From NCBI GenBank assembly GCA_029936965.1, contig JAPYRG010000008.1:1-64000 (forward strand): a stretch of 64,000 bases of DNA. Direction: 5' to 3'. Shown piece by piece: positions 3,150 to 24,147 of this stretch. Within the stretch, counting starts at the first letter, position 1. Every line of letters starts with the position of its first letter. A program made the position numbers and the translations under genes. Source of the DNA: Fidelibacterota bacterium (lineage in GTDB: Bacteria > Fidelibacterota > Marinisomatia > Marinisomatales > TCS55). A model generated the notes under the pieces. It had not been told where the DNA came from. It was given only the letters and a program-made list of their open reading frames with translations, and searched no databases.

Positions 3150-4396
3150 TGCCAGCCTACACCTATTTAATTAAAGACGAATCTGGCGGCAGAAGTGAAG
3201 GACAGATTAAAGCTGACAACCTAGATATTGCAATGCAGAAGTTGTCTGCTGATAATCAAATTATTGTCAAATTGGAAGAGGTGGATACTACATGGGATTT
3301 CATAGGTCCATTTATTGATGAAATTAATCTATCTATCGAGCGTTTTAAAAATAGAATTCCACTAAGTAATTTAGTTTTTTTTACTAGGCAGTTGGCCACT
3401 ATGTACTCTGCAGGTTTGACTTTGGAACGAGCTATTCAAGGGCTAGCTAGCGAGGAACGTCATCCTAAACTAAAGAAAGTTTTAACAAATGTTGGAGAAA
3501 ATATTCGAAAAGGGTTGTCATTATCTGAAGCATTGCAAAGACATCCAGGAGTGTTTTCAACTCTATTTGTATCTTTAACTAAAGCTGGTGAGGTTAGTGG
3601 AAATTTGGATGAAATTTTAGATGAATTAGCAACATATCTGGAAAACTTAGACGATGTAAGAAGAAAAGTGAGATCAGCGATGACTTATCCTATATTTATG
3701 GTTATCTTTCTTTTAGCAATGATGAGTGCAATGTTTATGTGGATTATTCCAATGTTCTCTGATGTGTATGTGCAATTAGGTGCCAATTTGCCTGCAGCCA
3801 CAAGGAAACTGGTATCATTAAGTGAATGGATAAGCATCAATTTTAATTCAATAGTTTTTTCATTATTTGGATTTATTGGTGGACTATGGCTTATTTCAAA
3901 AACACAAAGGGGTGGATATGTTCTTGATTCGATTAAGTTAAAGGTTCCTGTCTTTGGGTCATTACTTAATCAATCAATACTTAATAAATTTGCAAAAACT
4001 GCTGGCATTTTGTTAAATGCTGGTGTCCCTGTCATTGAATCTATGAATTTGATAGGGAAAATAGTAAGTAATCGCGTCTATGAAGTTGCTATTGGAGAGG
4101 CATCAGAATATATAAGAGACGGGTTCAATATTACTTCTGCTTTACGTAGGACTGAGGTGTTTCCTCCAATATTGTTGCAATTAACTGCTACAGGTGAAGA
4201 AACAGGTGAACTAGATTCTCTTTTGGATAGAACTGCAGATTATTATTATAAGCAAGTAAATGCATTAGTAGAGAGGATGACAACTTTAATTGAGCCAATA
4301 TTAATTCTTATGGTAGGAATTATTATTGCTGTAATGGTTGTTATAACATATTTACCTGTATTTTACTTAGGCGCTGCTTTACAATCAGGTTTATAA
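3149..4396 (+). CDS. pilC: Type IV pilus / type II secretion inner-membrane platform protein (PilC/GspF family)
   Basis: This polytopic inner-membrane protein forms the assembly platform on which the PilB ATPase acts. The sequence shows two copies of the T2SSF domain, starting near residue 70 (FFTRQLATMYSAGLTLERAI) and near residue 285 (FAKTAGILLNAGVPVIESM). Hydrophobic segments lie near residues 175-200, 225-245 and 380-405. At 415 aa it matches the family length. The start codon overlaps the pilB stop and its own stop overlaps the start of pilD (TAATG), which implies translational coupling of the three genes. Confidence 0.95.
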   Translation: MPAYTYLIKDESGGRSEGQIKADNLDIAMQKLSADNQIIVKLEEVDTTWDFIGPFIDEINLSIERFKNRIPLSNLVFFTRQLATMYSAGLTLERAIQGLASEERHPKLKKVLTNVGENIRKGLSLSEALQRHPGVFSTLFVSLTKAGEVSGNLDEILDELATYLENLDDVRRKVRSAMTYPIFMVIFLLAMMSAMFMWIIPMFSDVYVQLGANLPAATRKLVSLSEWISINFNSIVFSLFGFIGGLWLISKTQRGGYVLDSIKLKVPVFGSLLNQSILNKFAKTAGILLNAGVPVIESMNLIGKIVSNRVYEVAIGEASEYIRDGFNITSALRRTEVFPPILLQLTATGEETGELDSLLDRTADYYYKQVNALVERMTTLIEPILILMVGIIIAVMVVITYLPVFYLGAALQSGL

Positions 4397-5154
4397 TGGA
4401 ATTCTCTATTTTCTTTATAATTGGTACTTTTGTTGGAAGTTTTTTTAATGTAGTTATTTATCGTCTTCCACGAGATGAATCAGTGATCAGGCCAAGATCG
4501 CATTGTCCAAATTGTAAAAATTCTATTCCATTTTACAGAAATATTCCCATCATTTCATTTATTATTCAACTTGGTAAATGCGCACATTGCAAAAAACGTA
4601 TTTCTATTCAATATCCAGCTGTTGAATTAATAAATGGACTATTGTGGGGCTGGGCCTTTTCAAGTTTACCATTTTCAGAGGCTATAACTGTATCATTGTT
4701 TTGCTCTATACTTGTTTCAATTTCTTGGATAGATTCTAGAATCTATATGATTCCGCTTGACTTAATAATTGTTGGAGCAATCATTATTATTTTATCTATA
4801 ATTTTTGGAGTGTTATCTTTAGATCAGGCTTTATTAGGTATTGTAGCTGGAGTTTTTTTTCCTGGACTAATGATGGGCTTAACTTGGCTTGTGACTAGAA
4901 GGCAGGGTATGGGATTTGGAGATTTACAATTAGGATTAATTCTCGGTGCGTGGTTAGGGCCTATATTGATGATCCTAACTTTGTTTCTTGCTTCATTATT
5001 AGGCTTAATAGCATGGATATTAATTTCTATTTTTAAAGGTATTGATAGAAATAGACCATTGCCATTTGCCCCTTATCTTACATTTAGCGCAATTAGTATT
5101 TTTATTGTTAGTAATTATTCCACTACATTAATTGATCATTTAATTATGGTCTAA
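4396..5154 (+). CDS. pilD: Prepilin peptidase / N-methyltransferase (PilD/GspO, family A24)
   Basis: This membrane aspartyl protease cleaves and N-methylates type IV (pseudo)prepilins. An N-terminal methylase-type region has the zinc-binding pairs C37/C40 and C62/C65. The two catalytic aspartates of the A24 family are seen as D113 (in WIDSR) and D176 (in GFGDLQLG). The rest is about seven to eight hydrophobic segments, as expected. The 252-aa length is normal for the bifunctional form. Because a processing enzyme is encoded, pilins must exist elsewhere in the genome; none is recognisable in this window. Confidence 0.93.
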   Translation: MEFSIFFIIGTFVGSFFNVVIYRLPRDESVIRPRSHCPNCKNSIPFYRNIPIISFIIQLGKCAHCKKRISIQYPAVELINGLLWGWAFSSLPFSEAITVSLFCSILVSISWIDSRIYMIPLDLIIVGAIIIILSIIFGVLSLDQALLGIVAGVFFPGLMMGLTWLVTRRQGMGFGDLQLGLILGAWLGPILMILTLFLASLLGLIAWILISIFKGIDRNRPLPFAPYLTFSAISIFIVSNYSTTLIDHLIMV

Positions 5155-5172: not shown

Positions 5173-8100
5173 ATGAAAAAAATCTATAAAATTCTATTAA
5201 TAGTAATTTTGGTTTCAGCTGTATCATATGGCCAAGATGAGATAAGGAAATTATCAAATGGTTTTTCTTCTATTCCAGGAGATAATAGGATGCATTTTTC
5301 ATTAGCGAGTTATGAAATAAAGGATGTAACTATTGATGGACAAACCTTTAAAAAGCCTGTTGTCCCATTTGGTGGATTAAAATCAGAAGAAGGTGAGCCA
5401 ACTTTACCAACTATTACGACATTTTATCAAGTGTCTCCTAATAAATCTTATACTATTCATGTAAATGTTACTTCTTCTGAATGGATTGACAATATAGATA
5501 TTTTACCTCATCAAACATGGGATAGTGAATCGGATGAGGCTAATGTACTTTTTAAAAGAAATATAGAATTATACACTTCAGACATGAAGTACCCTGACAA
5601 TCAAGGAGAGGTCTCGAATACATTTGTGTTTAGGGATTTGCCAGTAGTTAAGGCTTCAATTACTCCGTTTAGATACTATCCCTTATCTAGGAAACTTGAG
5701 GTTATAACATCGGCCGATATTGAATTGATAGAAGTAGGAGACGTTGACCCCGTACAAATTCCTAATCGAATTTCTCGGGTTTTTGAACCATTATATGAAG
5801 CTTTAGTTGTTAATTATAACCGATCTACTAATGATGATGATTATCAGAAACCATCAATACTGTATATTTTGCCAAGCAACTCATCAAATCTAATGGCAAA
5901 TCTTGAAATTTTATTTGATTGGCGTCATCGATGTGGATATGTGGTTAATTATGTTTCGACAAGTACTACTGGAAATAGTTCCAGTTCGATTAAAAATTAT
6001 ATTAGTAATGCTTATAGTACCTGGGATGATCCTCCAGAATATGTTGCGTTAGTTGGGGATGCAAATGGAAGCTATTCCATACCAACATATTTTGAAAGTT
6101 TTAGTAGTTATAATGGAGAAGGAGATCATCCATATTCGCAATTAGTAGGCAATGATTTACTGCCTGAAGTGATTATTGGCAGATTATCTTTTAGCTCAAC
6201 AACAGAGCTTGCTACGATCGTAAATAAAACTGTTCAATATGAAAGCAATCCCTATCTCAGTCAGAATTGGTTTCATAGCGCATCGGTTGTAGGAGATGCC
6301 TCAACATCAGGGATATCTACAGTTATAACTAGTGAAAATATTAAAGAGTTAATGGAATATCATGGATATGATGATGTTCGTACTATCTATAACTCTCCAT
6401 TTCCATCGCAGATGGTTGCAGATTTAAATGCGGGTTTAACTTTTTTTAATTATCGCGGATATTATGGAGTGAGTGGCTTTAACTCCGGTAATATAAATAG
6501 TCTGTCTAATGGTTTTAAATTGTCAATTGCTACTGTTATTACTTGTGGTACGGGTTCCTTTTCATCTGGTACAGCTTTATCAGAAACATTTGTAAGGGCG
6601 GGGACGCCAACTCAGCCTAAAGGTGCTGTAGCTTCTGTTGGTACTGCAACAATTGGTACACATACAATGTTTAATAATGCTGTTGATATGGGCTTTTATT
6701 ATGGTGTTTTTGTTGATAAAATGGAAACAGCTGGAGCTGCTTTAGCTAGAGGCAAATTAAATCTATATCTCAATTATCCAAATAATCCAAACAATTATGT
6801 CAATATATTTACTCATTGGAATAATCTTATAGGAGATCCAGCTTTGCAAATGTGGACAGATGTCCCACAATCTTTTACGGTGAGCCATGAGAGCACAATT
6901 TCATCTGGAACTAATTATTATGATGTGGAAGTGTTGGATTATTTTAATGAACCAGTTGAAAGTGCCTATGTTACGATCTTAAAAGGAAATGATATTATAT
7001 TTGAATCTGGCTATACTGATATTAATGGTCGCATTATATTGTCTGTAGGTTCTGCTTCATTAGGTAGTGTCGATTTGACAGTAATAAAAAGAAATTTTGT
7101 TCCCTATCAAGGACAGTTTCAGATCAATGGCCAGAGTGTAAATGTAAATTCTGTTGAAGGTGCATTTACTATTGATGATGATATGAATGGTTTATCTATA
7201 GGAAATGCTAATGGAGTGATTGATGGAGGAGAGACTATTGAGTTAACTATACCTATATATAATTATGGGACAGATAATGCAGAGGGTGTTTACTGTAAAC
7301 TGATTGGCGGTGATGGATTTATCAATTATAGTATTGATAGTTTATATATTGGAACTTTAACTAGTGGAATGACAGGAAATGAAGGACAGTCATTTGTTTT
7401 TGAAGTAGAATCTGGAATATTAGAAAATGAAAATTTCCCATTAAGATTATTAATTAAAGATATAAATGACTCTAACTGGTTGAGTCAAATTCAACTTTCT
7501 ATTTCAGGCACGAGGTTACTTGCAGATAAAGTATATGTGCATGATGACCCAGTATTTGGTAATGATCACCTTGATCCAGGTGAAACTGCTGAAATCGAAA
7601 TAGAGATTTCAAATATTGGTTCAATGATGGCGAACAATGTAAGTGGTCGTTTATATTCAAATTATCCTGGTTTAGAAATTATAGATGACCAAGGATTTTG
7701 GCCATTAATTGTACAAAACAATTTTTCAATTAATACTACTGATAAGTTTGAAGTTATTGCTGCTGAAGATATAATTCCAGGCACAGTAGTTGAATTATTT
7801 ATAGATCTGGAATCTCCTGATGGCGCAGCTCAGAGTGCAAATATTCCATTGCAGATTGGTGTTAAAGAGGTAGATGATCCACTTGGCCCAGATTTATATG
7901 GATATTATGCGTATGATAGTGGTGATATATTATATTCAAACACACCATATTTTAATTGGATTGAAATAGATCCATTATATAATGGATCTGGTACCCAGTT
8001 GCCATTAAGTGACTACGGGGATAATCAAGATGATGTAACCACAGTTAATCTGCCATTTACATTTAAGTTTTATGGTGTTGATTATGATCAGATTAGTGTT

Positions 8101-8772
8101 TCTAGCAATGGATGGGTATCTATGGGATCTACATCCATGAAATCATTCAGGAATTATCATATACCTGGCCCTGGTGGTCCTTCTCCAATGATAGCTGTAT
8201 TTTGGGATGATCTTAATACAACTACTAGCGGGGGACGTGTTTATAAATGGTATGATGAATTAAACCATCAGTTTGTTATTCAATGGTCACACTTGAGAAC
8301 TTATGATAATAATAGTTTAGAAAATTTTCAGCTAATCCTTAAGGATTCTCAACATTATTTCACACCTACAGGCGATGGAGAAATATTAATGCAATATGCA
8401 GATTTTAATAATACATCAACTGGCAACTATAGTTGGGGTCAAGTGCATGGGAATTACTGCACTATAGGCTTAGAAGATCAAAGTGAAACTATTGGCCTTG
8501 AATATACCTTTAATAATACTTATGCTATTTCAGCCATGCCGCTTGAAGATTCTACTGCAATATTATTCACCACGAGAGGAGCAAGCATTCTCCAACGTGG
8601 AGATATTAATCAGGATGGATTATTAAATATAATAGATGTACTTACTCTTGTTGATTTTGTCCAATCAAGTAATACAGGAGAATTGAATCCTTATCTCGCA
8701 GATGTAAATGCAGACGAAATCATTAATTTTCTGGACATGATAAGTATTGTTCGGGAAATAATGGGCTATTAA
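5173..8772 (+). CDS. Secreted C25 (gingipain-like) peptidase-family protein with C-terminal dockerin repeats
   Basis: Residues 1-20 form a signal peptide ending near SYGQ. A gingipain-type propeptide region follows, then a C25 catalytic-like domain (about 225-560) with VALVGDANG, the nucleophile-like Cys C458 (ITCGTG) and LIGDPAL. The segment that normally carries the catalytic His reads NYRGYYG at 426-432, so the His seems replaced by Tyr. Ig-like regions follow. A module of about 230 residues (GYYAYD...FWDDL...IGLEDQ) is shared with the protein at 19794. The last 58 residues are a dockerin type I domain with two calcium loops, the first DINQDG at 1144-1149. There is no YPNPFNP sorting domain. 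The start has a weak AAGG four bases ahead. PorU (type IX sortase) was considered and judged less likely because of the dockerin. Confidence 0.85.
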   Translation: MKKIYKILLIVILVSAVSYGQDEIRKLSNGFSSIPGDNRMHFSLASYEIKDVTIDGQTFKKPVVPFGGLKSEEGEPTLPTITTFYQVSPNKSYTIHVNVTSSEWIDNIDILPHQTWDSESDEANVLFKRNIELYTSDMKYPDNQGEVSNTFVFRDLPVVKASITPFRYYPLSRKLEVITSADIELIEVGDVDPVQIPNRISRVFEPLYEALVVNYNRSTNDDDYQKPSILYILPSNSSNLMANLEILFDWRHRCGYVVNYVSTSTTGNSSSSIKNYISNAYSTWDDPPEYVALVGDANGSYSIPTYFESFSSYNGEGDHPYSQLVGNDLLPEVIIGRLSFSSTTELATIVNKTVQYESNPYLSQNWFHSASVVGDASTSGISTVITSENIKELMEYHGYDDVRTIYNSPFPSQMVADLNAGLTFFNYRGYYGVSGFNSGNINSLSNGFKLSIATVITCGTGSFSSGTALSETFVRAGTPTQPKGAVASVGTATIGTHTMFNNAVDMGFYYGVFVDKMETAGAALARGKLNLYLNYPNNPNNYVNIFTHWNNLIGDPALQMWTDVPQSFTVSHESTISSGTNYYDVEVLDYFNEPVESAYVTILKGNDIIFESGYTDINGRIILSVGSASLGSVDLTVIKRNFVPYQGQFQINGQSVNVNSVEGAFTIDDDMNGLSIGNANGVIDGGETIELTIPIYNYGTDNAEGVYCKLIGGDGFINYSIDSLYIGTLTSGMTGNEGQSFVFEVESGILENENFPLRLLIKDINDSNWLSQIQLSISGTRLLADKVYVHDDPVFGNDHLDPGETAEIEIEISNIGSMMANNVSGRLYSNYPGLEIIDDQGFWPLIVQNNFSINTTDKFEVIAAEDIIPGTVVELFIDLESPDGAAQSANIPLQIGVKEVDDPLGPDLYGYYAYDSGDILYSNTPYFNWIEIDPLYNGSGTQLPLSDYGDNQDDVTTVNLPFTFKFYGVDYDQISVSSNGWVSMGSTSMKSFRNYHIPGPGGPSPMIAVFWDDLNTTTSGGRVYKWYDELNHQFVIQWSHLRTYDNNSLENFQLILKDSQHYFTPTGDGEILMQYADFNNTSTGNYSWGQVHGNYCTIGLEDQSETIGLEYTFNNTYAISAMPLEDSTAILFTTRGASILQRGDINQDGLLNIIDVLTLVDFVQSSNTGELNPYLADVNADEIINFLDMISIVREIMGY

Positions 8773-8781
8773 GGAAGTTTC

Positions 8782-9963
8782 ATGATCATATCACCCCTCT
8801 TTTTTCTTGGAATTATTGTTCTAATATTAATTCTAATAGGATATTTAGAAAGAGTAAATCATCAGTATGTAATATCTAATATTCCATTGAGGATACATGT
8901 GAATGGGACTCGAGGTAAATCAAGCGTAACACGTCTTATTGCTGCTGGATTGCGTGCAGGTGGGATGCGAACTTTTGCGAAGACGACAGGAACAGCTCCA
9001 AGAATTATTGATTCTGAAGGGAAAGATAGGATTATTCATAGGTTGCGCTCAGCGTCAATTGGAGAGCAAATTAAATTAATGCGATTATTTTCCAAGGAAA
9101 AACCTGATGCTATAGTAATGGAATGCATGGCAGTACAACCAGAATATCAATGGATATCAGAACATCAAATGATACAATCGCATGTTGGAGTGATCACGAA
9201 TGCTAGACCAGATCATCTAGAAGAAATGGGACCAACTATAGATGATGTTAAGAAATCATTAGGAAATACTATTCCACAAAATGGCAAGGTGGTGTTTGGA
9301 GAAAAAAATATAGTTGATTCAGTTTCAGATATAGCAGAGTTTAGAAATACCAAGTATTTTGTAGCAGATGAAGATGCTATTACAGATACTCAACTAGCAG
9401 GATTTCCATATATAGAACATCCTCAAAATATCGCAGTAGCACTCAAGGTATGTAATGAATTAGGGGTTAAAGAAGATATTGCTCTTAACGGCATGCAGAA
9501 TTCCCAGCCTGATCCTGGTGCTTTAGTTATTAATAATATTGATTTTGGAAAAGGTAATATTCATTTTATTAATTCAATGGCAGCTAATGATCCTGTTTCT
9601 ACTTTACAGATTTGGAATATTATAAAAAGTAAATATAACTCCAATAATTATTATTCTATTTATTTGAACTGTAGAGAAGATCGACGAAGTAGAACACATC
9701 AATTATTAGAACTTATTTATAACGAAATAAATCCTCAAAAAGCAATAATTAGAGGAAAAAAAATAGAAGCTCTTGTAAATAGAATGGATAGTTTTTCTCC
9801 TAATACAATTACGCAGATAGTTCAAGAAGATGAACCAATACAATCATCAATAGATCAATTTAAAGAACTTCCATCTGAATCTATTTTATTTGCGATAGGC
9901 AATCAAGCTGGGTTTGGTCAAGATTTAATTAATGCACTAACGGAGTTTAAGTCTCATGACTGA
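8782..9963 (+). CDS. pgsB: Poly-gamma-glutamate synthase ligase subunit PgsB/CapB
   Basis: This is the ATP-dependent amide ligase that polymerises glutamate through gamma-linkages at the membrane, related to the Mur ligases. There is one N-terminal transmembrane segment (about residues 4-22). A Mur-type P-loop NGTRGKSS lies at 41-48, followed by the conserved stretch with TGTAPR. The signature VMECMAVQPEYQW and the later VITNARPDHLEEMGP are typical of PgsB. The 393-aa length is the same as I remember for Bacillus subtilis PgsB. An AAGGAAG ribosome binding site precedes the ATG. The end overlaps pgsC by 8 bases. The product could be a surface polymer, a released polymer or an osmolyte store; the sequence alone does not say. 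Confidence 0.93.
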   Translation: MIISPLFFLGIIVLILILIGYLERVNHQYVISNIPLRIHVNGTRGKSSVTRLIAAGLRAGGMRTFAKTTGTAPRIIDSEGKDRIIHRLRSASIGEQIKLMRLFSKEKPDAIVMECMAVQPEYQWISEHQMIQSHVGVITNARPDHLEEMGPTIDDVKKSLGNTIPQNGKVVFGEKNIVDSVSDIAEFRNTKYFVADEDAITDTQLAGFPYIEHPQNIAVALKVCNELGVKEDIALNGMQNSQPDPGALVINNIDFGKGNIHFINSMAANDPVSTLQIWNIIKSKYNSNNYYSIYLNCREDRRSRTHQLLELIYNEINPQKAIIRGKKIEALVNRMDSFSPNTITQIVQEDEPIQSSIDQFKELPSESILFAIGNQAGFGQDLINALTEFKSHD

Positions 9964-10399
9964 GGTTACTGTTGGTTTAGGTATTGCATTGAGTTTAATC
10001 CTCTCTGAGACTCTTGGAGTGACTGCTGGAGGGGTAATTGTACCTGGTTATATTGCTATGCATTTACATAACCCAGATCAAATAATTATGACATTTATAG
10101 CTTCGATGATCGTGATTCTTTTAATTAGAATACTAGGAAAGTTTATATTTTTATATGGTAAAAGAAGATTAGTGCTGACTCTATTGCTTGGTTTTATAAT
10201 TGGATATATTTCACGAAATCACTTTTTTTCTCCAATAGACACCTTCTCATACGAAGTTATTGGAAATATTATTCCTGGATTAATTGCTAGTTGGATGGAT
10301 AGACAAGGTATAATAAGAACAATATCTGCGATTATCATTACTTCAGTTTTAGTTAAATTAACCATTATGGTATTATCAGAAGGTACAATATATGCCTGA
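9956..10399 (+). CDS. pgsC: Poly-gamma-glutamate synthase membrane subunit PgsC/CapC
   Basis: This small integral membrane partner of PgsB is required for poly-gamma-glutamate synthesis. It is 147 aa, and the family is close to 149 aa. It consists almost wholly of four to five hydrophobic helices. The N-terminal segment GLGIALSLILSETLGVTAGG followed by VPGYIA is the CapC hallmark, as is the later IGNIIPGLIASWMDRQG. It overlaps pgsB at its start and the pgsW-like gene at its end by 8 bases each, so the three products are probably made in fixed ratio. Confidence 0.93.
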   Translation: MTEVTVGLGIALSLILSETLGVTAGGVIVPGYIAMHLHNPDQIIMTFIASMIVILLIRILGKFIFLYGKRRLVLTLLLGFIIGYISRNHFFSPIDTFSYEVIGNIIPGLIASWMDRQGIIRTISAIIITSVLVKLTIMVLSEGTIYA

Positions 10400-11522
10400 T
10401 AGACCTTTTAAACCTATAATACAAGAAACACGAACACTTGTGCTTCTTGCTTTTATTTCTATTGCTGCATATTCAATTGCTTATTTTTCAAGAAAGGAAT
10501 TTGTTTCTACTACCTATGAGATAAAAATAAAGGCAGCAAAGAAGATGCAAGAATCAATGAATATGCTAAAGAATCTTCGGATGGAAAAAGGTGTTTTTAT
10601 AGATCAAGAAAATGATCCAAATGAAACGGGGCTAGTTGGTTCTCAATTTAGTTTAATTACTACAGATGAAGGTGATTTAGATGCAAAATTAACTACTTTG
10701 GATCCAAATTTCGCTGCAGCGATGGTAGAATTATTAAATCGGGCAGATCTTGTTAGAGAAGATTCAATTGCAGTAATGTTAACTGGTTCTATGCCAGGCG
10801 CTAATATGGCCATGTTAATTGCATGTAAGGCTATAGGTATTTATCCCATTATTATATCCTCGATAGGAGCATCGCAGTGGGGTGCGAATGACCCAGAGAT
10901 GACTTGGTTAGATATGGAAAGTATTTTGTTTAACAATGGTTATATTTCATCTCGTTCTATTGCTGCGTCTATAGGTGGAAGAAATGATCAGGGTCGATTA
11001 TTAAGTCCTAGAGGTAGAGAATTGATTCGCAATAATATTGATAAGAGTAGATTGCATTTAATATCGGGCAAAGGATTAGAAGACAATATTGATCAGAGAA
11101 TGCAATATTTTGGTAATAATAATTATAAAGCAGTGGTAAATATTGGAGGTGGTGTTGCCAGTTTAGGCACTAGCTTTAACTTAAGATTATTACAGCCTGG
11201 AATTGTATATAGGAAAGATATAGAAAAAATTTCTCGAGGTGATGGAATAGATGGTGCTGTTGTTAGGTTTTCTAAACAAAATATTCCTCTTATTCATATT
11301 CTAAATATCCAAAAATTAACAGATGAGCTTGGTATGGAATATGCACCCATACCGTTACCGGAAATAGGCGAAGGTCGTCTGTACGCTATTGAAAAATATG
11401 ATCTAAATATGACTATCTTGAGCTTACTCATTGTATCATTATCTGTAGTAATCACTGGATGGAAAAGCAAACAACAAATTAAAGAAATAATGACAAATCA
11501 TGATCCAGAAAGCATTATTTAA
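10392..11522 (+). CDS. pgsW: Poly-gamma-glutamate system protein (PgsW-like)
   Basis: It resembles the family named poly-gamma-glutamate system protein, found beside pgsB/pgsC in species that lack classical pgsA. There is an N-terminal transmembrane helix (about residues 14-32), a soluble domain of about 300 residues, and a second helix near the C-terminus (about 338-360). The soluble part has Gly-rich loops such as LTGSMPGANMAML, SSIGASQWGANDP and NIGGGVASLG, which look like a nucleotide- or phosphate-type binding fold. No catalytic residue is known to me. Its position directly after pgsC with overlapping frames says it works with the synthase. PgsA/CapA (a calcineurin-like protein) is not found in this window. 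The gene symbol is a family-level assignment. Confidence 0.8.
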   Translation: MPDRPFKPIIQETRTLVLLAFISIAAYSIAYFSRKEFVSTTYEIKIKAAKKMQESMNMLKNLRMEKGVFIDQENDPNETGLVGSQFSLITTDEGDLDAKLTTLDPNFAAAMVELLNRADLVREDSIAVMLTGSMPGANMAMLIACKAIGIYPIIISSIGASQWGANDPEMTWLDMESILFNNGYISSRSIAASIGGRNDQGRLLSPRGRELIRNNIDKSRLHLISGKGLEDNIDQRMQYFGNNNYKAVVNIGGGVASLGTSFNLRLLQPGIVYRKDIEKISRGDGIDGAVVRFSKQNIPLIHILNIQKLTDELGMEYAPIPLPEIGEGRLYAIEKYDLNMTILSLLIVSLSVVITGWKSKQQIKEIMTNHDPESII

Positions 11523-12372
11523 AATTTTATTCTTTATCCTCTTTTATTCAGTAGTGAATGCTGAACTTTTAAAACCGAGTATTGGAGGAGAGGAAAAAGA
11601 AATACTAAAAATTTCTGATAAAAGAAGAATCTATACAATATTAAGAGAAGATTCATTGGTGTATGAAATACATGGACCTACTCGCATTGAATTAATTTCC
11701 CGGTATCCTTCAAATAAGAAAACGAAAAAAAGCCAGAAATTTTCATATATGCTAATGATTGATAAGGAAAAACCAATTATCATTAATCATAGATATAAAA
11801 TTCAAGAATCCATTCGTTCCGTTCAGCATCCGAATCATTATTATACATATTCAGGTAATTACTTTTTCAATATTGCTGACGGGAATCATCGAGTAGTATT
11901 GAAATCTATAGACAAAGAAGGATACCCAGTCTTACTGCGTATGTTGAAAAAAGATTTTGAGAAACCTAGTTATAATAGAAATGAAATAATTCCTATGGTA
12001 TATCAATCAAATCGTGAAGTTATGATAGATGGGAAAGCTATTTCATACTATGCGTTAACAAATAATCGCCCGCTTCAGCTTGAATTAAAAGGACCTAAGA
12101 AATTACGCATTCTTTCTCGTCTAATTTTTGATGAATATATGGGAACAAGTGATATATATCGTCTTCGAATAAAAAGTGGTAAGAAAGTAATAGGGACGTA
12201 TCTTATTTCTTCTGAAAGATCATCTGAATCTTATATCCTAAATATGGAAAATAAAGTGCCTGGAAAATGGAGGACTTGTGAAATAGATATATCTGAAGGC
12301 AATAAAGTAATTACGATAGAAGTTGTTGAAAAGGATAAACAAGTATTAACTCGATTTCAAGAGTATAAATGA
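11500..12372 (+). CDS. Exported protein with two tandem copies of an unknown ~95-aa domain
   Basis: I do not recognise the family. Residues 1-21 look like a signal peptide (cleavage near VNA-E). The mature part seems to be a tandem duplication. Copy A (about 44-138) contains YTILREDSLVYEIHGPTRIE at 45-64, continues LISR, and ends near GNHRVVLKSID. Copy B (about 182-277) contains LQLELKGPKKLRILSRL at 192-208 and ends near GNKVITIEVVE. The aligned features are a Gly-Pro followed by basic residues and I/L-L/I-S-R, then a C-terminal strand after G-N-H/K. The pattern looks like a beta-sandwich. The start overlaps the pgsW-like gene by 23 bases and the end overlaps the next gene by 4 (ATGA), so a role with the poly-gamma-glutamate synthase is inferred, for example periplasmic polymer handling. 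Confidence 0.8.
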   Translation: MIQKALFKILFFILFYSVVNAELLKPSIGGEEKEILKISDKRRIYTILREDSLVYEIHGPTRIELISRYPSNKKTKKSQKFSYMLMIDKEKPIIINHRYKIQESIRSVQHPNHYYTYSGNYFFNIADGNHRVVLKSIDKEGYPVLLRMLKKDFEKPSYNRNEIIPMVYQSNREVMIDGKAISYYALTNNRPLQLELKGPKKLRILSRLIFDEYMGTSDIYRLRIKSGKKVIGTYLISSERSSESYILNMENKVPGKWRTCEIDISEGNKVITIEVVEKDKQVLTRFQEYK

Positions 12373-13409
12373 AAATTATTGTAATACTATTTATTTCATT
12401 ATTGAATGGTCAAAACTTATTAGACTATCTAAGTGGACCCATTACATTGAAGATAGGGTTAATAAATGGCTATGATGATAATGTATTGCATTTCTCTGAT
12501 ATAGAAAAGAGCCAAGCATCCACAAATAAATATATTATGGGAGGGGTAAACACTTTTGACTCTCATTTCACTAGATATTTTGTCACTGCTGAGAAAAGGA
12601 TACATTTAGCTGACCGTAGCAAATATATTCATTTCTATACTAGAACGAATATTTCTAATTATTCACATAATGACAATCGTCATCATTGGAGTGGGAATCT
12701 TAAAACAACATATCGATGGGGGCCTTATAGAAAAATAGCATATTCTTTGAGGCATCTAAATAGTTATTATACTCGTCACTATATTGATCGAGATATATCT
12801 AATTATATTTTGCAACCATGTAATTTTACTGATAGAGAACAATATATAGAATTTTCCTATCCAATCAAAAGAGATCAATGGATGAGCATCCTTTTAAGTT
12901 ATAATCAACGGTATTATGATATTCCTTTTGTTGAATTTGATTTAGATATTTTGTCCTCTTCATTGAAAATTAATAGAAGATTAAGAAATGTAGGGAGCAT
13001 TGCAATTGTACTTAATTTTGGAACTGCAAATAATTTAACTTTTGGTAAAACTGCAAAAGCAGGTTTGTTAGACCGTTCATATAAGAATTTTGAATGGTAT
13101 GTTCCATTCACCTATAGTAGAGGTATTGGTGTCTTAGATAAGGTTGGCTTTTCTATGAGACAAGATTTTCGATACTATAAAGCAGAGGAAGAAGGAGACC
13201 AACTGCATAGTGGACGTAATCATATAGATAACAAAATGAATATTTGGGTCGAAAAAAAGATTAATGAGAAATTGTTAGTAAAAACATCATTACGCTACCG
13301 TTATCGACTGACGGAATCTCAATTTGATTGGGTTTCTACGCTAAGGACATTTCATCAATGGCAAGCTTGGATATCCATTGAGTGGAAAATGGTCTATGAT
13401 CGTTATTAA
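12369..13409 (+). CDS. Predicted outer-membrane beta-barrel protein of the pgs operon
   Basis: Signal peptide MKIIVILFISLLNGQ is followed by about 330 residues of alternating aromatic/hydrophobic and polar residues typical of transmembrane beta-strands. Examples are KYIHFYTRTNISNY, KIAYSLRHLNSYY, WMSILLSYNQRYYD and LLVKTSLRYRYRL. It is rich in Tyr, Arg and Ser and ends in an aromatic strand (WISIEWKMVYDRY), as many outer-membrane proteins do. I do not recognise a named family. The ATGA overlap with the tandem-domain gene puts it in the same translational unit as pgsBC. A plausible inferred role is an outer-membrane channel or assembly factor for the polymer; a structural role unrelated to the polymer is also possible. 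Confidence 0.75.
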   Translation: MKIIVILFISLLNGQNLLDYLSGPITLKIGLINGYDDNVLHFSDIEKSQASTNKYIMGGVNTFDSHFTRYFVTAEKRIHLADRSKYIHFYTRTNISNYSHNDNRHHWSGNLKTTYRWGPYRKIAYSLRHLNSYYTRHYIDRDISNYILQPCNFTDREQYIEFSYPIKRDQWMSILLSYNQRYYDIPFVEFDLDILSSSLKINRRLRNVGSIAIVLNFGTANNLTFGKTAKAGLLDRSYKNFEWYVPFTYSRGIGVLDKVGFSMRQDFRYYKAEEEGDQLHSGRNHIDNKMNIWVEKKINEKLLVKTSLRYRYRLTESQFDWVSTLRTFHQWQAWISIEWKMVYDRY

Positions 13410-13410
13410 T

Positions 13411-14412
13411 ATGACAATGAAATACTTTTTATTTATACTAATCTTTTTTTCAGCATTTAGCTGTATGGAACCAAATAATGAAAATTTGTGGAATTTAAAT
13501 AAGATTACATTGATTGAGACGGAAGGTTATTGTCGTGATGTATATGTCTCAGGTGATTCAGTTTTTGTGGCTGCAGGTCAAGCTGGAATTCAACTTTGGG
13601 ATATTTCTACTATTACCTCTCCAAGATTAGTATGGAAAAGATCATTATTGGATCTAGGCATTAATAAAGAAATATCGCAGGTAGAATATAAGTCGTCAAT
13701 TAGACAGCTATTTGTACTTGAGAGCAATGAACGCCCTATTCATATTGATTTATCAATTCCTGATTCGGTTAATGTATTGGGCCAATTTTCAAGTGAAAAA
13801 ACTAAAGAATTTCGCGTTACAACAAATAATACCAACTCATTTACAGTTTATGCAGCAGATAATGATGATGGGCTAAAATCTAGTACATTTGAATATGATT
13901 CTTTTTATAAACTTTGGTTCAATACTTCTGGAAATGAAATTTCAAGCATAGGAAATCCGAATGGAATTGACATTATTTCTGATCTAATAGTTTTAACTTT
14001 AGATCAACTTGGTATACAAGCTTTTCAATATGAAAATAGCATAATTAATAGTTTATATCATATAGACCTACCAGGGAATGCAAGAGCAATTACTATTTCA
14101 GATATCGATGCATATTATGTAGCCTGCGAAGATGAAGGAGCGTTTAAAATAGTAAGCAATTATCCTGATGGCCCTCCAGTTAAAATGCAATTTGGTGAAG
14201 ATCTATATGTCACCCATGTGGCTATATCTTCTAATCAAATAGCATTATCCTGTGCTGCTAATGGTATATCCTTGTACGATAGAATAAGTAATGACAATAT
14301 TGAATCTAGAGGAATCCATAATATAGGGTATGTATATCACACTGAGTTTTATAATAATTATCTATTTGCAGCTAGTAGGGAAGGATTGCAGATCTTTCAA
14401 ATTGATCAATAA
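13411..14412 (+). CDS. Putative lipoprotein with LVIVD-type beta-propeller repeats
   Basis: I place the start at the ATG at 13411, one base after the previous stop, rather than at the upstream in-frame ATG at 13378 that would overlap the barrel gene. It gives a clean signal sequence MTMKYFLFILIFFSAFSC whose Cys could be lipidated, although the lipobox (A-F-S-C) is relaxed. The mature 310 residues contain repeats of the form V-x-V-x-x-G-L/I-x-L-x-D-I (for example VFVAAGQAGIQLWDIS, LSCAANGISLYDR, FAASREGLQIFQI), which form blades of LVIVD propellers. The function is unknown. It is probably an envelope protein at the end of the pgs-linked gene string. Confidence 0.75.
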   Translation: MTMKYFLFILIFFSAFSCMEPNNENLWNLNKITLIETEGYCRDVYVSGDSVFVAAGQAGIQLWDISTITSPRLVWKRSLLDLGINKEISQVEYKSSIRQLFVLESNERPIHIDLSIPDSVNVLGQFSSEKTKEFRVTTNNTNSFTVYAADNDDGLKSSTFEYDSFYKLWFNTSGNEISSIGNPNGIDIISDLIVLTLDQLGIQAFQYENSIINSLYHIDLPGNARAITISDIDAYYVACEDEGAFKIVSNYPDGPPVKMQFGEDLYVTHVAISSNQIALSCAANGISLYDRISNDNIESRGIHNIGYVYHTEFYNNYLFAASREGLQIFQIDQ

Positions 14413-14421
14413 AGGACGAAT

Positions 14422-17400
14422 ATGAGATTCTTTTATATAATTTTTAATATTCTATCTTTAATTGTTGGTCAGGAAATGATATGGCAAGAAAATGGTATTC
14501 CAATACGCCAAGGAGTCCATATTGAATGGCAACGTACATTATGCCCTGGAGAGCCAGGGAATTTGATATTTGTTTGGTCCGATACTCGTTATGGGAGTAG
14601 AAATGTTTTTGCACAAAAGGTAGACTCTGCTGGAGCATTGCTATGGGGCACTGGAGGAAGTGCAGTTACAAATTTACCTGGCAGACAAGAAGATCCTGTT
14701 GCTATAACGGATGGTGATGGAGGTGCCTTCATTGCTTGGGTTGATTATCGTTTTGACGAAGAAGGAGATATTTTTATTCAACATATTGATAATCAAGGGA
14801 ATAGAATGATGGATGATAATGGAGCGGCCCTAGCTAGAATAGATGGAAGGCATCTTACAATTAATATGTGTACAGATAGTCTAGGCGGTGTATTTGTTGT
14901 TTGGCAAGATAAGAGGAATTTCCTTGATGATGATATTTATGGAACACACGTATCATCAAATTATGAAATTATTGCTCCTTCAAATGGAGTTTCAATAATC
15001 CAGATGAATGGAAACCAAGGAGCAAAGAGCTTAGAATATGCTGGGAATAATGAAGCAACTATAATATGGTCCGATACTAGAAGCGGAAGTGGAAATGATA
15101 TATATTGTCAAAAAATAAATATGAATATGGAAAAAATATTTGCTGAAGGAGCATTAGAGGTTTCTACAACCTCTGATCTTGAGACGACACCAAGGACTAC
15201 ATACATGAATAATGATACATCGTTTATAATCTGGCAATCTGGAACTGAAAACACAGATATTTATTATAATCTTCTAACAAGTAATGGATTAGTATATACA
15301 GATCCTGTGCAGTTATGTAGTTATAATTCTTCAAAAGCTTACCCTAGAGTAAAAAGAAATCAATTAGGAGAAGTATTCGTTCAATGGATCGATTACAGAA
15401 ATGATCCAACTGAAGGTAGTCACTTTTACCAAAGAATTTCTGTTGGAGGAAATATTTCCTGGGATCAAGATGGAATTCAATTAGATATGGGAGGGAATGA
15501 TCATCATGCGAGATTTTCTGCTGGAGGAAATGGAGAGTTATTTGTTTATTGGGAGCGGGGTACGTTTCCTAATGTAGATATTATGTATCAGGCAATTCAA
15601 TCTGATGGATCATTACTTTTAAATAATGCGCAATTTGTATCTAATATGAGTGGATATCAATCAATGCCAAATACAATATCCGATAATAATAATGGTTCAT
15701 TTGTTGTTTTTGCTGATCAGTCTAATGGAAGTATCGATTTAAGAGTTCAACGAATGGATTTAGATTTAATATCTTTTGAATTAAATGGCCTTATTGCGAT
15801 GAATGGACTTGACGGTGATATTGAGTATCCGATAGCAAACTATATGAATGACTATGTTGTAATAAATTGGGTTGATGCTCGAAACGATAAAAAAGTTTTT
15901 GGCTCGATTCTTGAAGATGAGGGTGTCGTTACATCGTTAGTAAATGGTCAAGAACTAACTCAATTTGATAGTTATACTTTTCAGCTAGAGAATGAACCTA
16001 CATCCCTTTTAGCGCATGATTATCTTTTTACAGCTGTATTTGATGCACAGAGCGGAGCAAAGTTAATTCGGATCAATAAGTTTAATCTAGAGTTTCAAAT
16101 GCAATGGCCTAATGAGGGTTATGTAGTTCATCAAAGTACTGCTGATCAAAGAAAAGTTAAATTGTTTGAAACGCATGATGGAATAGGTGTTGTTTGGTCT
16201 GAAATAAGGGATGAAGTGGATTTTGATTTATTTTATCAAAGATTTGATTTGGAAGGTCAAATACAATTTGACACTTCTGGCGTAACTCTTCTGGATGGAG
16301 TTGGGATAGATAATTATGTTGAAGGTATCTATTTTACTCCAGATAGTAATTTTATATTGGTTTGGGTTGATGATGTTTGGGGCGCTGGATCACTAAAGTA
16401 TCAGAAATATGATTTAAATGGAGAGATTGTAGCTGGATGGCCAAATGAAGGTTATACATTATCATCAATTGGTGATCCCGAAAAATTAAAAGGTCAAGTT
16501 ATTAATTCAGATGATGGGATTTTAGTAGCATGGGAGGAATCATATAATTTTAATAAAAATATAAAAGCAAATATTGTCCATTGGGATGGGACATTAGAGT
16601 GGACAAATGGATTATTGTTAACATCTGCAGAAAATGATCAGATCAATTTAGAATTAGCAATTGATGAATCGAGTCAAACCAGTCTAGTGATTTGGGAAGA
16701 TTTTCAAAATGGAAATGATTTAAATATTGTTGGCCAATTTATTGATTTATCAAATAATACTCTTTTAAATGAAAATGTTATTATTTGTAATAATGAAGTA
16801 TATCAGCAATCGCCTGTAGTAAAGACAGTAAATGATGGGCACTATCTAGTTGTCTGGGAGGATGAGAGAGGTTTTTTAAATAATGACCCTGTGCTTTCAG
16901 GAGGATTAGATATTTATGCACAAGTTATTCATTATGAAAATGGTATCGTCTATTCCGAAAATGGGATTGTATTATGTCAAGAATATCATGACCAGAAAGA
17001 ACCGCAGGTTTCGTTAATGAAAGAAAATCAAGATAATTTGCAAAGCTTGTGGTTCGTTCACTGGACCGATATGCGTAGCTCAGGAAAGGCTGATCTTGCA
17101 AATCTATACGGTCAAGTGATACGTCTTTCTGAGCCAATGAATATAGAAATTTCTAATCTACATCCAACTTCATTTATGATTGGTGATGTTTTTCCTAATC
17201 CTTTTAATAATTCTATTGGAATTGAAATTAACGTTAGAGATCTTGAACCAATTGACTTTCTAGTAGTTAATGTTATGGGCAAAGTGATCTATAATGAGAA
17301 GATCATGCCATTAAGAAATGGCATTCATTCATTTGCATGGAAGGCTAAGAACAATCATGCTCAAGATTTACCAAGTGGTATCTATTTTCTTCAATTCAAT

Positions 17401-17445
17401 TCAGTAAATTATCGATCAAATAGAAAAATCACTTACCTCAAATAA
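14422..17445 (+). CDS. Large secreted repeat protein (about 16 W-x-D-x-R repeats) with type IX sorting domain
   Basis: A signal peptide (to about residue 16, ending near IVGQ) precedes about 16 copies of a 50-65-residue repeat. Its core is hydrophobic-x-W-x-D/E-x-R followed by a short acidic loop and I/L-Y/F-x-Q-x-I/V-D: FVWSDTRYGSRNVFAQ, IAWVDYRFDEEGDIFIQ, VVWQDKRNFLDDDIYG, VQWIDYRNDPTEGSHFYQ, VIWEDFQNGNDLNIVGQ, and VHWTDMRSSG near the end. This is the usual look of a beta-propeller or super-propeller. Residues about 920-1007 form a Por-type C-terminal sorting domain (VFPNPFNNSIGIEINV, then SGIYFLQF). An AAAGGACG element precedes the ATG. The ligand is unknown; it probably lies on the cell surface or is released. 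Confidence 0.85.
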   Translation: MRFFYIIFNILSLIVGQEMIWQENGIPIRQGVHIEWQRTLCPGEPGNLIFVWSDTRYGSRNVFAQKVDSAGALLWGTGGSAVTNLPGRQEDPVAITDGDGGAFIAWVDYRFDEEGDIFIQHIDNQGNRMMDDNGAALARIDGRHLTINMCTDSLGGVFVVWQDKRNFLDDDIYGTHVSSNYEIIAPSNGVSIIQMNGNQGAKSLEYAGNNEATIIWSDTRSGSGNDIYCQKINMNMEKIFAEGALEVSTTSDLETTPRTTYMNNDTSFIIWQSGTENTDIYYNLLTSNGLVYTDPVQLCSYNSSKAYPRVKRNQLGEVFVQWIDYRNDPTEGSHFYQRISVGGNISWDQDGIQLDMGGNDHHARFSAGGNGELFVYWERGTFPNVDIMYQAIQSDGSLLLNNAQFVSNMSGYQSMPNTISDNNNGSFVVFADQSNGSIDLRVQRMDLDLISFELNGLIAMNGLDGDIEYPIANYMNDYVVINWVDARNDKKVFGSILEDEGVVTSLVNGQELTQFDSYTFQLENEPTSLLAHDYLFTAVFDAQSGAKLIRINKFNLEFQMQWPNEGYVVHQSTADQRKVKLFETHDGIGVVWSEIRDEVDFDLFYQRFDLEGQIQFDTSGVTLLDGVGIDNYVEGIYFTPDSNFILVWVDDVWGAGSLKYQKYDLNGEIVAGWPNEGYTLSSIGDPEKLKGQVINSDDGILVAWEESYNFNKNIKANIVHWDGTLEWTNGLLLTSAENDQINLELAIDESSQTSLVIWEDFQNGNDLNIVGQFIDLSNNTLLNENVIICNNEVYQQSPVVKTVNDGHYLVVWEDERGFLNNDPVLSGGLDIYAQVIHYENGIVYSENGIVLCQEYHDQKEPQVSLMKENQDNLQSLWFVHWTDMRSSGKADLANLYGQVIRLSEPMNIEISNLHPTSFMIGDVFPNPFNNSIGIEINVRDLEPIDFLVVNVMGKVIYNEKIMPLRNGIHSFAWKAKNNHAQDLPSGIYFLQFNSVNYRSNRKITYLK

Positions 17446-17466
17446 GTTAATATTTGCTGATTGGTT

Positions 17467-19815
17467 ATGAGATTTCCATTGAGGAAACTAGTATTAATTA
17501 ATTCTTTAATTATTTGCATTAATGCTCAAGCCTTAGATGAGCGTTATCATTCTTTTTTAGAAATAGAAAGTTTTCTTGATTCTTTAACACAAGTGTATGA
17601 TGTTAATTCAGAATTTAGAGTTTATCATCTTGGGTACAGCGGCCAGGAAGAACTCCCAATTTATGCAGTCAAGATTTCAGATAATGTAGAATTCAAAGAA
17701 GATGAACCAAGAGTATTATTCGTTGGGCAATTGCATGCGGAAGAAGTATTAGGTGTAGAAGCAGTTTTAGAACTGATATTGCTTATGCTTGATCCACCTC
17801 CAGAGGAAATGCAACATATCAATATATTAAAACAAAATATTGAGACCTGGATTATCCCTACTCTTAATCCTGAGGGCCTCAATGTAGTGCATGATGGCCT
17901 TGATGTAAGTTATAGAAAAAACAAAACGGACTTTTCACCTCAGGGTCCATGGCCTAACAATTATTTTGATTATGATTCTGCAGTTGGAGAAGATATTGAT
18001 GGAGTTGATTTGAATAGGAATTTTGACTTTAATTGGGTGTTTGGTGATACATTTATGGAGCCTGATCCTAGTGATTACGCCGCGCACTATGATTATTATA
18101 GAGGATTGCATCCGTGGTCAGAAGCTGAGACTCGGGTATTAAAAGACTTTGCAATAGAAAATAACTTTCTTTTTTCCATTATTTGGCACAGTGCACGTTC
18201 AGGAAGATATTCTGAAAAAGTATTTAGTCCTTGGTCATGGGATGGGGATAAGAGAACCCCTGATGATGCATCAATTAAACTTATTGGCGATCAAATTGCA
18301 GAAATAATAATTAAAGAAAATAGCTCTGAAAGTTATCAATCTAGTTATAGCGGATCTAGACGTGGCAACGCGCATGACTGGTTTTATCAAGCAACAGGTA
18401 CATTTCAATATCTTATCGAATGTGGAACATCAAATCTACAGCCTGATAGTGCATTAGTTGAAGATACGATTGATCGCTTAATGCCTGGAATGTTGTTTTT
18501 ATTAGATAGAACAATAGGGTATAACACGGATGCTTCCCAAATAACTGGTATAATATCAGATGGAGAGAGCGGAAATCCTCTTGAAGATGTAGTCATTGCT
18601 ATTCAGGAACTTTATAGTGGAGTCCAACAGCCCCGTAAAAGCGATGAATTTGGTCGATATCGAAGAATTGTCGTGCCAGGCACATATAGCTTGGAATATA
18701 GAAAAAACGGTTATTTCCCCTTGAATTTTACGGTTACCGCTAATCCAAGTTCTCCAACAATTCAAAATGTTACTATGACACCGATACCTTTGCATAATAT
18801 TGAAATAAATATTTCTTCTTTTCAATATCCGGTGGTTTTAGAAGAAAACCCTTTTTTGATAATAGATAACTCAGATATGTCTGATACGATTCAAATGGAT
18901 TTTTCCCACAATCATAATCTTGAAATTCCTCAAGGGGAGTGGCGATTTACATTATATTGGGATTTTCTTATCCCCTGGCAGCAAAATATTACCGTTAACA
19001 ATGACCTTGAATTAAATATAGATATGCAGGAGCCATTGTGGGTTCAAAATATATTTGGTTTTCCCATACTAGATAATTCATCATTTAACATTATAGAAGG
19101 ACCATGGGTATTTGATAATAACATGGTTCGATCTCAAAATGAATTATTCTATGCTAATGCTGATTCTCTTGATTCCGTTTTTGTACTTGAATCTCAACTA
19201 TATTCTTTCTCTGAGCCAATGGATATGATTGTTTTAAGAATTGATCATCAGTGGGAGTTAGAATGGAATAATGATTCAATTACAATTTCACTTATGGACT
19301 CAACAGAGATTATTAATCAAATGTTTCTTGCAGATCATCAGTGGGATCAAAACGCTAGACACAGGTTAGTAGCAGTAGATACTAATGGTATTAATAATAT
19401 TAAAGTTAAACTTGAACTAAAAAGGGATAAAACAATCAACTATAGGGGTTATAATATTTATGATATTAAGTTATTTGCAGGAAATAACTTTACCTTGGGT
19501 TCCATTGTAGAACAATCTCCTATTAACCAAAATACTTCAATAATCTCTGTAAGTGAAATTTATCCTAATCCATCAAATGGTATGATAAATATTGATTTTA
19601 TTAATTCTCCTGGACCAGCTTCGATTGTTGTATATAATTTGCTTGGGCAAGAGGTATATGCTGGGGAAATTCCTCTCCAATATAACCAAAAGAAAATTTG
19701 GCGTTACAACTTTTTAGATGATTATCAACGAAATCCTGTATCTGGTGTGTATTTTATTAAAATTGTTTCTCAACGTGAAACATTCTATAGAAAATGTATA
19801 TTGTTAAAGCCATAA
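17467..19815 (+). CDS. Secreted zinc carboxypeptidase (peptidase M14) with type IX sorting domain
   Basis: Zinc ligands of family M14 are visible as H90 and E93 (HAEE) and H241 (IIWHSARSG). The substrate-carboxylate pair is N183-R184 (DLNRNFDFNW) and the general base is E318 (YLIECGTS). All key residues are kept, so the enzyme should be active. A signal peptide (first about 22 residues) precedes the domain. A carboxypeptidase-regulatory-like beta-domain follows (about 365-445), then a further beta-rich region. A C-terminal sorting domain starts near IYPNPSNGMINIDF. I chose the ATG at 17467 over the TTG at 17461. The 3' end overlaps the next gene by 22 bases. The likely role is extracellular peptide trimming for nutrition. 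Confidence 0.88.
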   Translation: MRFPLRKLVLINSLIICINAQALDERYHSFLEIESFLDSLTQVYDVNSEFRVYHLGYSGQEELPIYAVKISDNVEFKEDEPRVLFVGQLHAEEVLGVEAVLELILLMLDPPPEEMQHINILKQNIETWIIPTLNPEGLNVVHDGLDVSYRKNKTDFSPQGPWPNNYFDYDSAVGEDIDGVDLNRNFDFNWVFGDTFMEPDPSDYAAHYDYYRGLHPWSEAETRVLKDFAIENNFLFSIIWHSARSGRYSEKVFSPWSWDGDKRTPDDASIKLIGDQIAEIIIKENSSESYQSSYSGSRRGNAHDWFYQATGTFQYLIECGTSNLQPDSALVEDTIDRLMPGMLFLLDRTIGYNTDASQITGIISDGESGNPLEDVVIAIQELYSGVQQPRKSDEFGRYRRIVVPGTYSLEYRKNGYFPLNFTVTANPSSPTIQNVTMTPIPLHNIEINISSFQYPVVLEENPFLIIDNSDMSDTIQMDFSHNHNLEIPQGEWRFTLYWDFLIPWQQNITVNNDLELNIDMQEPLWVQNIFGFPILDNSSFNIIEGPWVFDNNMVRSQNELFYANADSLDSVFVLESQLYSFSEPMDMIVLRIDHQWELEWNNDSITISLMDSTEIINQMFLADHQWDQNARHRLVAVDTNGINNIKVKLELKRDKTINYRGYNIYDIKLFAGNNFTLGSIVEQSPINQNTSIISVSEIYPNPSNGMINIDFINSPGPASIVVYNLLGQEVYAGEIPLQYNQKKIWRYNFLDDYQRNPVSGVYFIKIVSQRETFYRKCILLKP

Positions 19816-22800: not shown

Positions 22801-22946
22801 TAAGTGAAAGGAATTATTCTGGAAAATATAATGTCCAATGGCAAGGAATAGATAGATTTGGTAAATCAGTATCATCTGGAACATACTTTGTAGTTTTAGA
22901 AGCATTAAACTCCAGAAAAGTTCAAAAGATTTTATTCATAAAATGA
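19794..22946 (+). CDS. Secreted C25 (gingipain-like) peptidase-family protein with type IX sorting domain
   Basis: A signal peptide (about 1-16, MYIVKAIILFVSFLFA) is followed directly by a C25-like domain (about 55-400) with YVLLIGDVDG, the Cys C296 (FVCNSNDF) and ILGDPSV. In gingipain RgpB the catalytic His lies 33 residues before the Cys; here that place is W263 in NYRGWG, so the classical dyad is incomplete, although H271 in GWHYP is near. The middle has Ig-like regions. Residues about 720-945 carry the module shared with the 5173 protein (YGYWAYD, FDWVELDP, INSNGW, FWDDL). The last about 90 residues are a canonical sorting domain (AYPNPFNPSTTISYQLP). It overlaps the M14 gene by 22 bases, so the two are probably expressed together. 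Confidence 0.85.
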   Translation: MYIVKAIILFVSFLFANEGSFRGKSLNAVLSGAIPISYSHFISEQYNIPISQLNPQRGSYLIISPNNMIEHLGDLVSFKKSQGFDVYIETLSNVGSTAEEIKQLIENTLLEDPMLEYVLLIGDVDGVAAMPSFYYGPENDVTDQKFTHILGEDFYPDVFIGRFSIDSISELIVMIQKTINYHRQPLATDSNWLDKALVVAGNYSNTVPIPITPKWTSYWVRDLLYDNGYTSVDTVFYPPVQQGASLIQNYINNGVGIVNYRGWGDANGWHYPEFHVGDVVALNNGWMTPVFTSFVCNSNDFANNVDPCLGEALVRAGTPSNPKGGIAIVGPSDLHTSTKFNNVINAYMFDAMFDNNIVELGPAVNAGLMGLIREFPNLDGVEEAQEFYFHVYNILGDPSVSMYLTRPNEFSIIAEDCFNNDGFVELSVFDVEGNSIHDAVISLMVNDSILFKGKSDINGKVHASINLDNVSIIDVYANKNGFVQGKIELEVSDDQSDLVLVGYELGQLNDNLLEIGEISHIYPIFKNKGTSTILSINGYVNIPLVQNCQIISSDFEISDLDPGQSALSVAPIVVRPNSANKENILLNIDIDTQDWNYDLAIPIKPLTLIADLNGDELFNNTISELSLLIKNYSNTELDSVFVELISLDDSLSILMNSREYFSISSYSNTEINNINHEFMIGNVSPGSALSYQLSIKKDTIIVHSEQKDFRPSFNDNQPIAPTWYGYWAYDNLDTNFMQSPLFDWVELDPMYGGSGASEYKLDDDDHIIVQLPFEFKYFNRTYNELTINSNGWASFISCDIDYFYNYTIPMALGPKAVLAPFWDDLEVINEDSIRVYTKYEQNNGRYIIEWSRALNGFDEVTEETFAIYLYNQESIPTESGDGVIEFHYLDISDIDADKNFSTIGIEDHTKNEGIQYVFNNIYAPGAAQLQNQRSIRFTTEAPINYVSSLSFINEDNLPVGFQMFPAYPNPFNPSTTISYQLPNVSDVKISIIDLLGNEVDVLLSERNYSGKYNVQWQGIDRFGKSVSSGTYFVVLEALNSRKVQKILFIK

Positions 22947-23197: not shown

Positions 23198-23213
23198 ATT
23201 GGTTATAAATAGA

Positions 23214-24146: not shown

Positions 24147-24147
24147 A

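Follow-up and report, generated by a model that had tools for sequence, protein, structure and literature searches.

The closest described counterparts of the locus reported here are the PgsBCA/CapBCA systems of Bacillus and its relatives, whose synthase core also occurs in two-membrane cells, in the Gram-negative poly-gamma-glutamate (PGA) loci of Fusobacterium nucleatum and Francisella (capBCA). Fusobacterium has been listed as a Gram-negative polyglutamate producer, its F. nucleatum genes being described as homologous to the B. subtilis set (PMC3815933). The PGA model of CapsuleFinder contains no outer-membrane component, and its authors state that diderm bacteria require one more protein (PMC5542703). 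In Cloacimonadota, a matrix around the cells stained with 4′,6-diamidino-2-phenylindole (DAPI) has been read as poly-gamma-glutamate; only CapB, CapC and CapA(PgsF) were described in the corresponding operon, which was called a typical Gram-positive organisation, and the main text of that work mentions no outer-membrane component (PMC13082233, ISME J 2026). The open-access literature that we searched yielded no description of an outer-membrane component for Gram-negative PGA loci, and the tools and papers searched name no protein that carries polyglutamate through the outer membrane, the polymer being known from at least one Gram-negative bacterium. Here we analyse a five-gene locus in a 64,000-nucleotide stretch (hereafter the window) of contig JAPYRG010000008.1, from a Fidelibacterota bacterium of the phylum referred to below as Neomarinimicrobiota. 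We consider it likely that this locus is a dedicated trans-envelope system for the synthesis and export of poly-gamma-glutamate in diderm bacteria.

The five genes occupy positions 8782-13409 on the forward strand and, as noted in a preliminary description made from the sequence alone, overlap one another by exactly 8, 8, 23 and 4 bases. The first two encode the same core as PgsBCA/CapBCA according to curated equivalog models, which agrees with their earlier designation as clear pgsB and pgsC genes. The pgsB product (8782-9963), the amide ligase of the synthase with the P-loop GTRGKS, matched TIGR04012 with 426 bits (cut-off 223) as well as Mur_ligase_M, and that of pgsC (9956-10399), the integral membrane subunit, matched TIGR04011 with 126 bits (cut-off 96) and the Pfam family CapC (PF14102) with 107 bits; its relatives have about five hydrophobic segments. 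The third gene (10392-11522; hereafter g4), initially called PgsW-like, belongs to the named subfamily TIGR04332 (gamma_Glu_sys, "poly-gamma-glutamate system protein"; 305 bits, cut-off 100). Its N- and C-terminal ends are hydrophobic and are taken as membrane anchors, and it is linked to pgsBC in relatives. A profile search of the PDB with g4 and a single-sequence search with PgsB detected no relative. The last two genes, g5 (11500-12372) and g6 (12369-13409), had no family match in Pfam or NCBIfam, and their products carry no sorting tail of the type IX secretion system (T9SS). Both mandatory components of the CapsuleFinder PGA model, CapB and CapC, are found at the locus (CapA and CapE are accessory). 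However, compared with PgsBCA/CapBCA, the block lacks PgsA/CapA and any gene of the CapD/gamma-glutamyltransferase (GGT) or PgdS type (Pfam and NCBIfam searches), and adds the TIGR04332 protein, a tandem jelly-roll protein and a barrel. Promoter-like sites did not exceed chance level.

The genetic linkage of this set is nearly certain. Using g4 to search GTDB contigs, with a narrow alignment because one including divergent loci was too variable, we detected 277 relatives, and the best 80 were analysed as loci. They come from Neomarinimicrobiota, Cloacimonadota, Bacteroidota, Ignavibacteria, Zixibacteria, KSB1, Electryonea, Calditrichota, TA06 and Gemmatimonadota, in all of which homologues of g5 and g6 lie beside pgsBC as the preliminary description had anticipated, and also from Fermentibacteria and Eisenbacteria. 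Among these 80 loci, pgsB was present in 74, pgsC in 77, g5 in 75, g6 in 68 and a downstream LVIVD-repeat gene in 43; several of the loci devoid of g6 end at contig edges. Of 676 pairs of adjacent genes, 673 had both members on one strand and near each other; the gaps had medians of -8, -8, -23 and -1 bases. Because gene order and tight spacing are kept in relatives, a chance association can be excluded. The order pgsB-pgsC-g4-g5-g6 is found, for instance, in a Cloacimonadota genome consisting of a single contig of 2,246,820 bases (locus L228). In one Gemmatimonadota locus (L158) the order is rearranged, with g6 and the LVIVD-repeat gene upstream of pgsB, but no member of the set has moved away. 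Recent sharing of a genomic island was rejected as the cause of this conservation, since identities among g6 members are as low as 13-20%; a search for close relatives of g6 in viral contigs detected none. The divergence of all five genes, measured by pairwise identities, is correlated (Spearman 0.52-0.80), which is equally compatible with shared ancestry. Altogether, roughly twelve phyla of bacteria with two membranes keep the five-gene set together, and the block recurs across the Fibrobacteres-Chlorobi-Bacteroidetes (FCB) group.

Gene co-occurrence agreed with this pattern. Among 245 genomes of Neomarinimicrobiota, g4 was detected in 100 and g6 in 93, with both in 91 (Fisher p ~1e-53), g4 only in nine and g6 only in two. 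Unbiased counts gave a similar picture for Bacteroidales (247 genomes, 13 with g4, 10 with g6 and 9 with both; p ~1e-12) and Cloacimonadota (125 genomes, 105 with g4, 106 with g6 and 102 with both; p ~7e-14), and in the three groups the two genes were nearly always on one contig, ~3 kb apart or less. It had been foreseen that g5 and g6 homologues occurring mostly without pgsBC would speak against a common function; in fact, g6 was found without g4 in just 2 of 93 Neomarinimicrobiota, 1 of 10 Bacteroidales and 4 of 106 Cloacimonadota. Leaving out the four Cloacimonadota cases, we inspected these singly: G233 ends at a contig edge after g5, and G145, with a 40-residue match, and G392 both rest on short fragments. 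The nine g4-only Neomarinimicrobiota genomes were also inspected, except G136, G164 and G166: two have g6 according to a better profile (G001 and G205), in two g4 lies near the edge of its contig (G117 and G223) and two belong to another type of pgs locus that lacks g5 and g6 (G019 and G235). In Cloacimonadota genomes such as G539-G551, many g6 matches contained a single stop codon, TAG or another, within the matched region, which may be a terminal stop, real recoding or an assembly issue.

The protein encoded by g5 appears to be exported, as a signal-like N-terminal segment was found in 108 of 109 family members. The domain duplication noticed in the preliminary description is real: profiles of the two halves align with 99.7% probability (E 2.9e-25), and the AlphaFold2 model, with a mean predicted local distance difference test score (pLDDT) of 94.4, consists of two beta-sandwich (jelly-roll) domains. 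Its fold matches showed a resemblance to tandem CBM22 modules, with low global template modelling (TM) scores, and a sequence-profile search against the PDB found no relative. The family is basic (median net charge +15, isoelectric point 9.6). In the window, net charge per 100 amino acids is +5.9 for g5 and +3.8 for g6, whereas five further exported proteins checked nearby range from -6.0 to -7.4, a contrast that fits proteins handling a polyanion.

The outer-membrane barrel predicted for g6 was recovered with confidence by AlphaFold2. The model, built from 63 diverse sequences, contains 14 long strands (mean pLDDT 93.5, predicted TM score 0.87), all 14 of which show polar/apolar alternation, and 97 of 103 members have a signal-like segment. 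The top solved structures matched by Foldseek were the 14-stranded porins CymA and OmpG (E ~1e-9 to 1e-8), OprD-type porins being matched as well; against OmpG (2iwv) the TM-score was 0.55 when normalised to the length of the query and 0.65 when normalised to that of the target. Despite this common strand number and overall fold, g6 is only ~10% identical to CymA and OmpG, has conserved outer loops and is tied to a polymer synthase, and a sequence-profile search against the PDB found no relative. The nearest folds of g6 being uptake porins, and g5 resembling carbohydrate-binding modules, the two could be imagined as a pair that takes up or senses polyglutamate or other anions and just happens to lie in the same operon. 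This is very improbable since, unlike nutrient porins, g6 hardly ever occurs without its synthase partner g4, and the block has neither an import transporter nor a hydrolase.

Dedicated barrels associated with inner-membrane synthases are also found in the polymer exporters AlgE, PgaA, BcsC and PelB, and the lumen of AlgE is basic, a likeness to the one predicted for g6. However, these barrels have 16-18 strands, and the combination of such a barrel with a tetratricopeptide repeat scaffold, typical of AlgE/PgaA/BcsC-type export, is not seen in g6 and g5: the barrel has 14 strands, its partner is a tandem jelly-roll protein and the polymer would be a polyamide. Neither g5 nor g6 was found named in any paper in the open-access literature. 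Export of the polymer through g6 is likely, and the set probably represents an unrecognised exit route of poly-gamma-glutamate from two-membrane cells. The preliminary proposal that g5 and g6 are undescribed periplasmic and outer-membrane parts of such a route is thus supported in terms of linkage and folds, and nothing that had been expected to contradict it was found; passage through g6 itself we infer.

Several observations nevertheless weigh against an export function of g5 and g6. The basic lumen (family averages of 20.5 inward K/R versus 12.7 D/E) was deduced from the alternation of residues along the strands, with no other barrels serving as controls. The best-conserved polar residues of g6, namely a cluster formed by N38, S43, E189, D191, D277, H280 and R283, together with Y35 and K/R326, are in or beside the predicted outer loops (sidedness was assigned with both chain ends in the periplasm), which suggests a gate, a binding site or an active site. 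Competing explanations find their main foothold here, as this location could mean an enzyme or a receptor instead of a plain pore. Furthermore, g5 does not seem to be always needed, given that in three loci (L128, L229 and L235) g6 directly follows g4 with no g5 between them. Finally, a second type of pgsB-pgsC-g4 locus, devoid of g5 and g6, exists in the same phylum (L063, L079, L083 and L085), so that some diderms apparently manage without both genes. Judging by sequence features only, these second-type loci carry, between them, genes for a gamma-glutamyltransferase, a racemase-like lipoprotein and an amidohydrolase-like protein, and two genomes, G113 and G232, contain both locus types.

These points bear on two other explanations. 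According to one of them, g6, with g5, would serve in the outer membrane as an anchor or as an enzyme, attaching, trimming or modifying the surface polymer in a CapD-like manner, and the polymer would cross elsewhere. The polar cluster on the predicted outer face would suit such a role, and so would the absence of CapD/GGT from the block, whereas the pgs loci without g5 and g6 do carry gamma-glutamyltransferase and racemase-like genes. We nonetheless consider it unlikely, because the best fold matches of g6 are porins, and none of the enzymes with a barrel fold (OmpT, PagL, LpxR and OMPLA) appears in the list of its 50 best matches. The other explanation is that the ligase pair yields a different product, either a short gamma-glutamyl modification or some other polyanion joined by amide bonds, which g5 and g6 export or attach. 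The coexistence in G113 and G232 of this set with separate, classical-looking pgsBC-g4 loci makes two products possible, and family searches of the window found no glutamate racemase or GGT neighbour. However, PgsB and PgsC score well over the curated equivalog cut-offs, and it is in Cloacimonadota, most genomes of which carry g4 and g6 and whose PGA operon is the same kind of locus, that the matrix read as poly-gamma-glutamate was seen (PMC13082233). A different product appears, hence, quite improbable.

The absence of pgsA, also pointed out in the preliminary description, holds for the block and for the genome (2.14 Mb, 96.65% complete), which has no match to PF09587 (CapA/PgsA) and no complete pgsA elsewhere; it does not hold for the system at large. 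A large CapA-domain protein (~700-1900 amino acids) is encoded in 47 of the 245 Neomarinimicrobiota genomes, 42 of which also have g4 (p ~2e-14). About 42% of the system-bearing genomes of this phylum thus encode such a large exported protein, unlike PgsA. In those that we read, a signal peptide is combined with PKD-type parts and a tail that is dockerin-like or of the T9SS kind; these shared tails confound similarity searches, and a count of loci based on them was discarded. The gene is present in loci L183, L184 and L187-L193, directly upstream of pgsB in Melioribacter (L123, 3208-6219), upstream in Eisenbacteria (L172, 1125-4340) and ~2.5 kb downstream of the five genes in Cloacimonadota (L228, 11333-13999). 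A mere loss from the assembly studied here was rejected, as all 40 members searched of the family to which the window belongs gave only matches to PKD or dockerin-like parts. The large CapA-domain protein may be a non-essential surface partner, and g4 would stand in for PgsA in the inner-membrane complex.

Returning to trans-envelope export, which we favour, the system might work as follows. By homology to the characterised families, PgsB, on the cytoplasmic face, and PgsC would polymerise glutamate at the inner membrane, where g4 would occupy the place of PgsA. The secreted and strongly basic jelly-roll pair of g5 may bind the emerging polyanion and guide it across the periplasm to g6, whose predicted 14-stranded barrel with a basic lumen would be the exit pore. 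The identity of the polymer and the direction of transport are what we infer from these components. Holding, trimming or organising the polymer at the cell surface probably falls to the lipoprotein and the T9SS-exported neighbours. In this model, g5 and g6 would be the diderm answer to a step with which PgsBCA can dispense in Gram-positive cells. Whatever the mechanism, they are two defined, widespread and unannotated families tied to the synthase, a widely conserved and previously unassigned extension of poly-gamma-glutamate synthase in FCB-group diderms, many of the carrier phyla being abundant in oceans, sediments and anaerobic digesters. They can serve as a marker by which polyglutamate loci of diderms are distinguished from other such loci in metagenomes, and their distribution points to polyglutamate surfaces as a common trait of Neomarinimicrobiota and Cloacimonadota.

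Conservation extends past the five genes noted earlier, to a C25-peptidase-like gene upstream and, downstream, to the LVIVD-repeat gene and a gene for a protein with a T9SS tail. The C25 (gingipain-type) peptidase-like protein (5173-8772, forward strand, as are the two downstream genes; PF01364, 171 bits) has a propeptide and a dockerin-like C-terminus. Of the 55 loci in which this could be assessed, 34 have a C25 gene that ends less than 400 bp before pgsB. Its identification as PorU was rejected: the window copy did not match the PorU model and a Bacteroidota copy reached 85 bits (cut-off 420). The motif that reads NYxGHG in gingipains is NYRG[WYEF] in the window proteins 5173-8772 and 19794-22946, as it is in C25 proteins linked to pgs genes in other phyla. 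The catalytic His thus appears to be absent from all of these proteins, with the Cys stretch kept, and they form a widespread C25 branch that is possibly non-proteolytic. The LVIVD-repeat (propeller-type) protein (13411-14412) is a predicted lipoprotein with the lipobox FSAFSC and a weak match to PF08309, which reaches 84 bits in a Bacteroidota homologue; most members have a lipoprotein signal. It is followed by a large acidic surface protein with a T9SS type A sorting tail (14422-17445; TIGR04183, 27 bits), conserved with the block in Neomarinimicrobiota, and the TIGR04183 domain is present on three neighbours (14422-17445, 17461-19815 and 19794-22946). A more ambitious possibility, which we regard as rather unlikely, is that polyglutamate is built into a surface layer with T9SS-delivered proteins; the C25-type, large T9SS-tail and, where present, CapA-domain proteins would attach to the polymer or be attached by it, and synthase, pore and secretion system would together make an FCB-wide proteinaceous capsule. 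Beyond the block, a series of genes for peptidases that end in T9SS sorting tails (17461-25914) encodes an M14 carboxypeptidase, the second C25 protein and an MXAN_6640-type metalloprotease, and genes resembling pilB/gspE, pilC/gspF and a prepilin peptidase (1425-5154) lie directly upstream of the first C25 gene.

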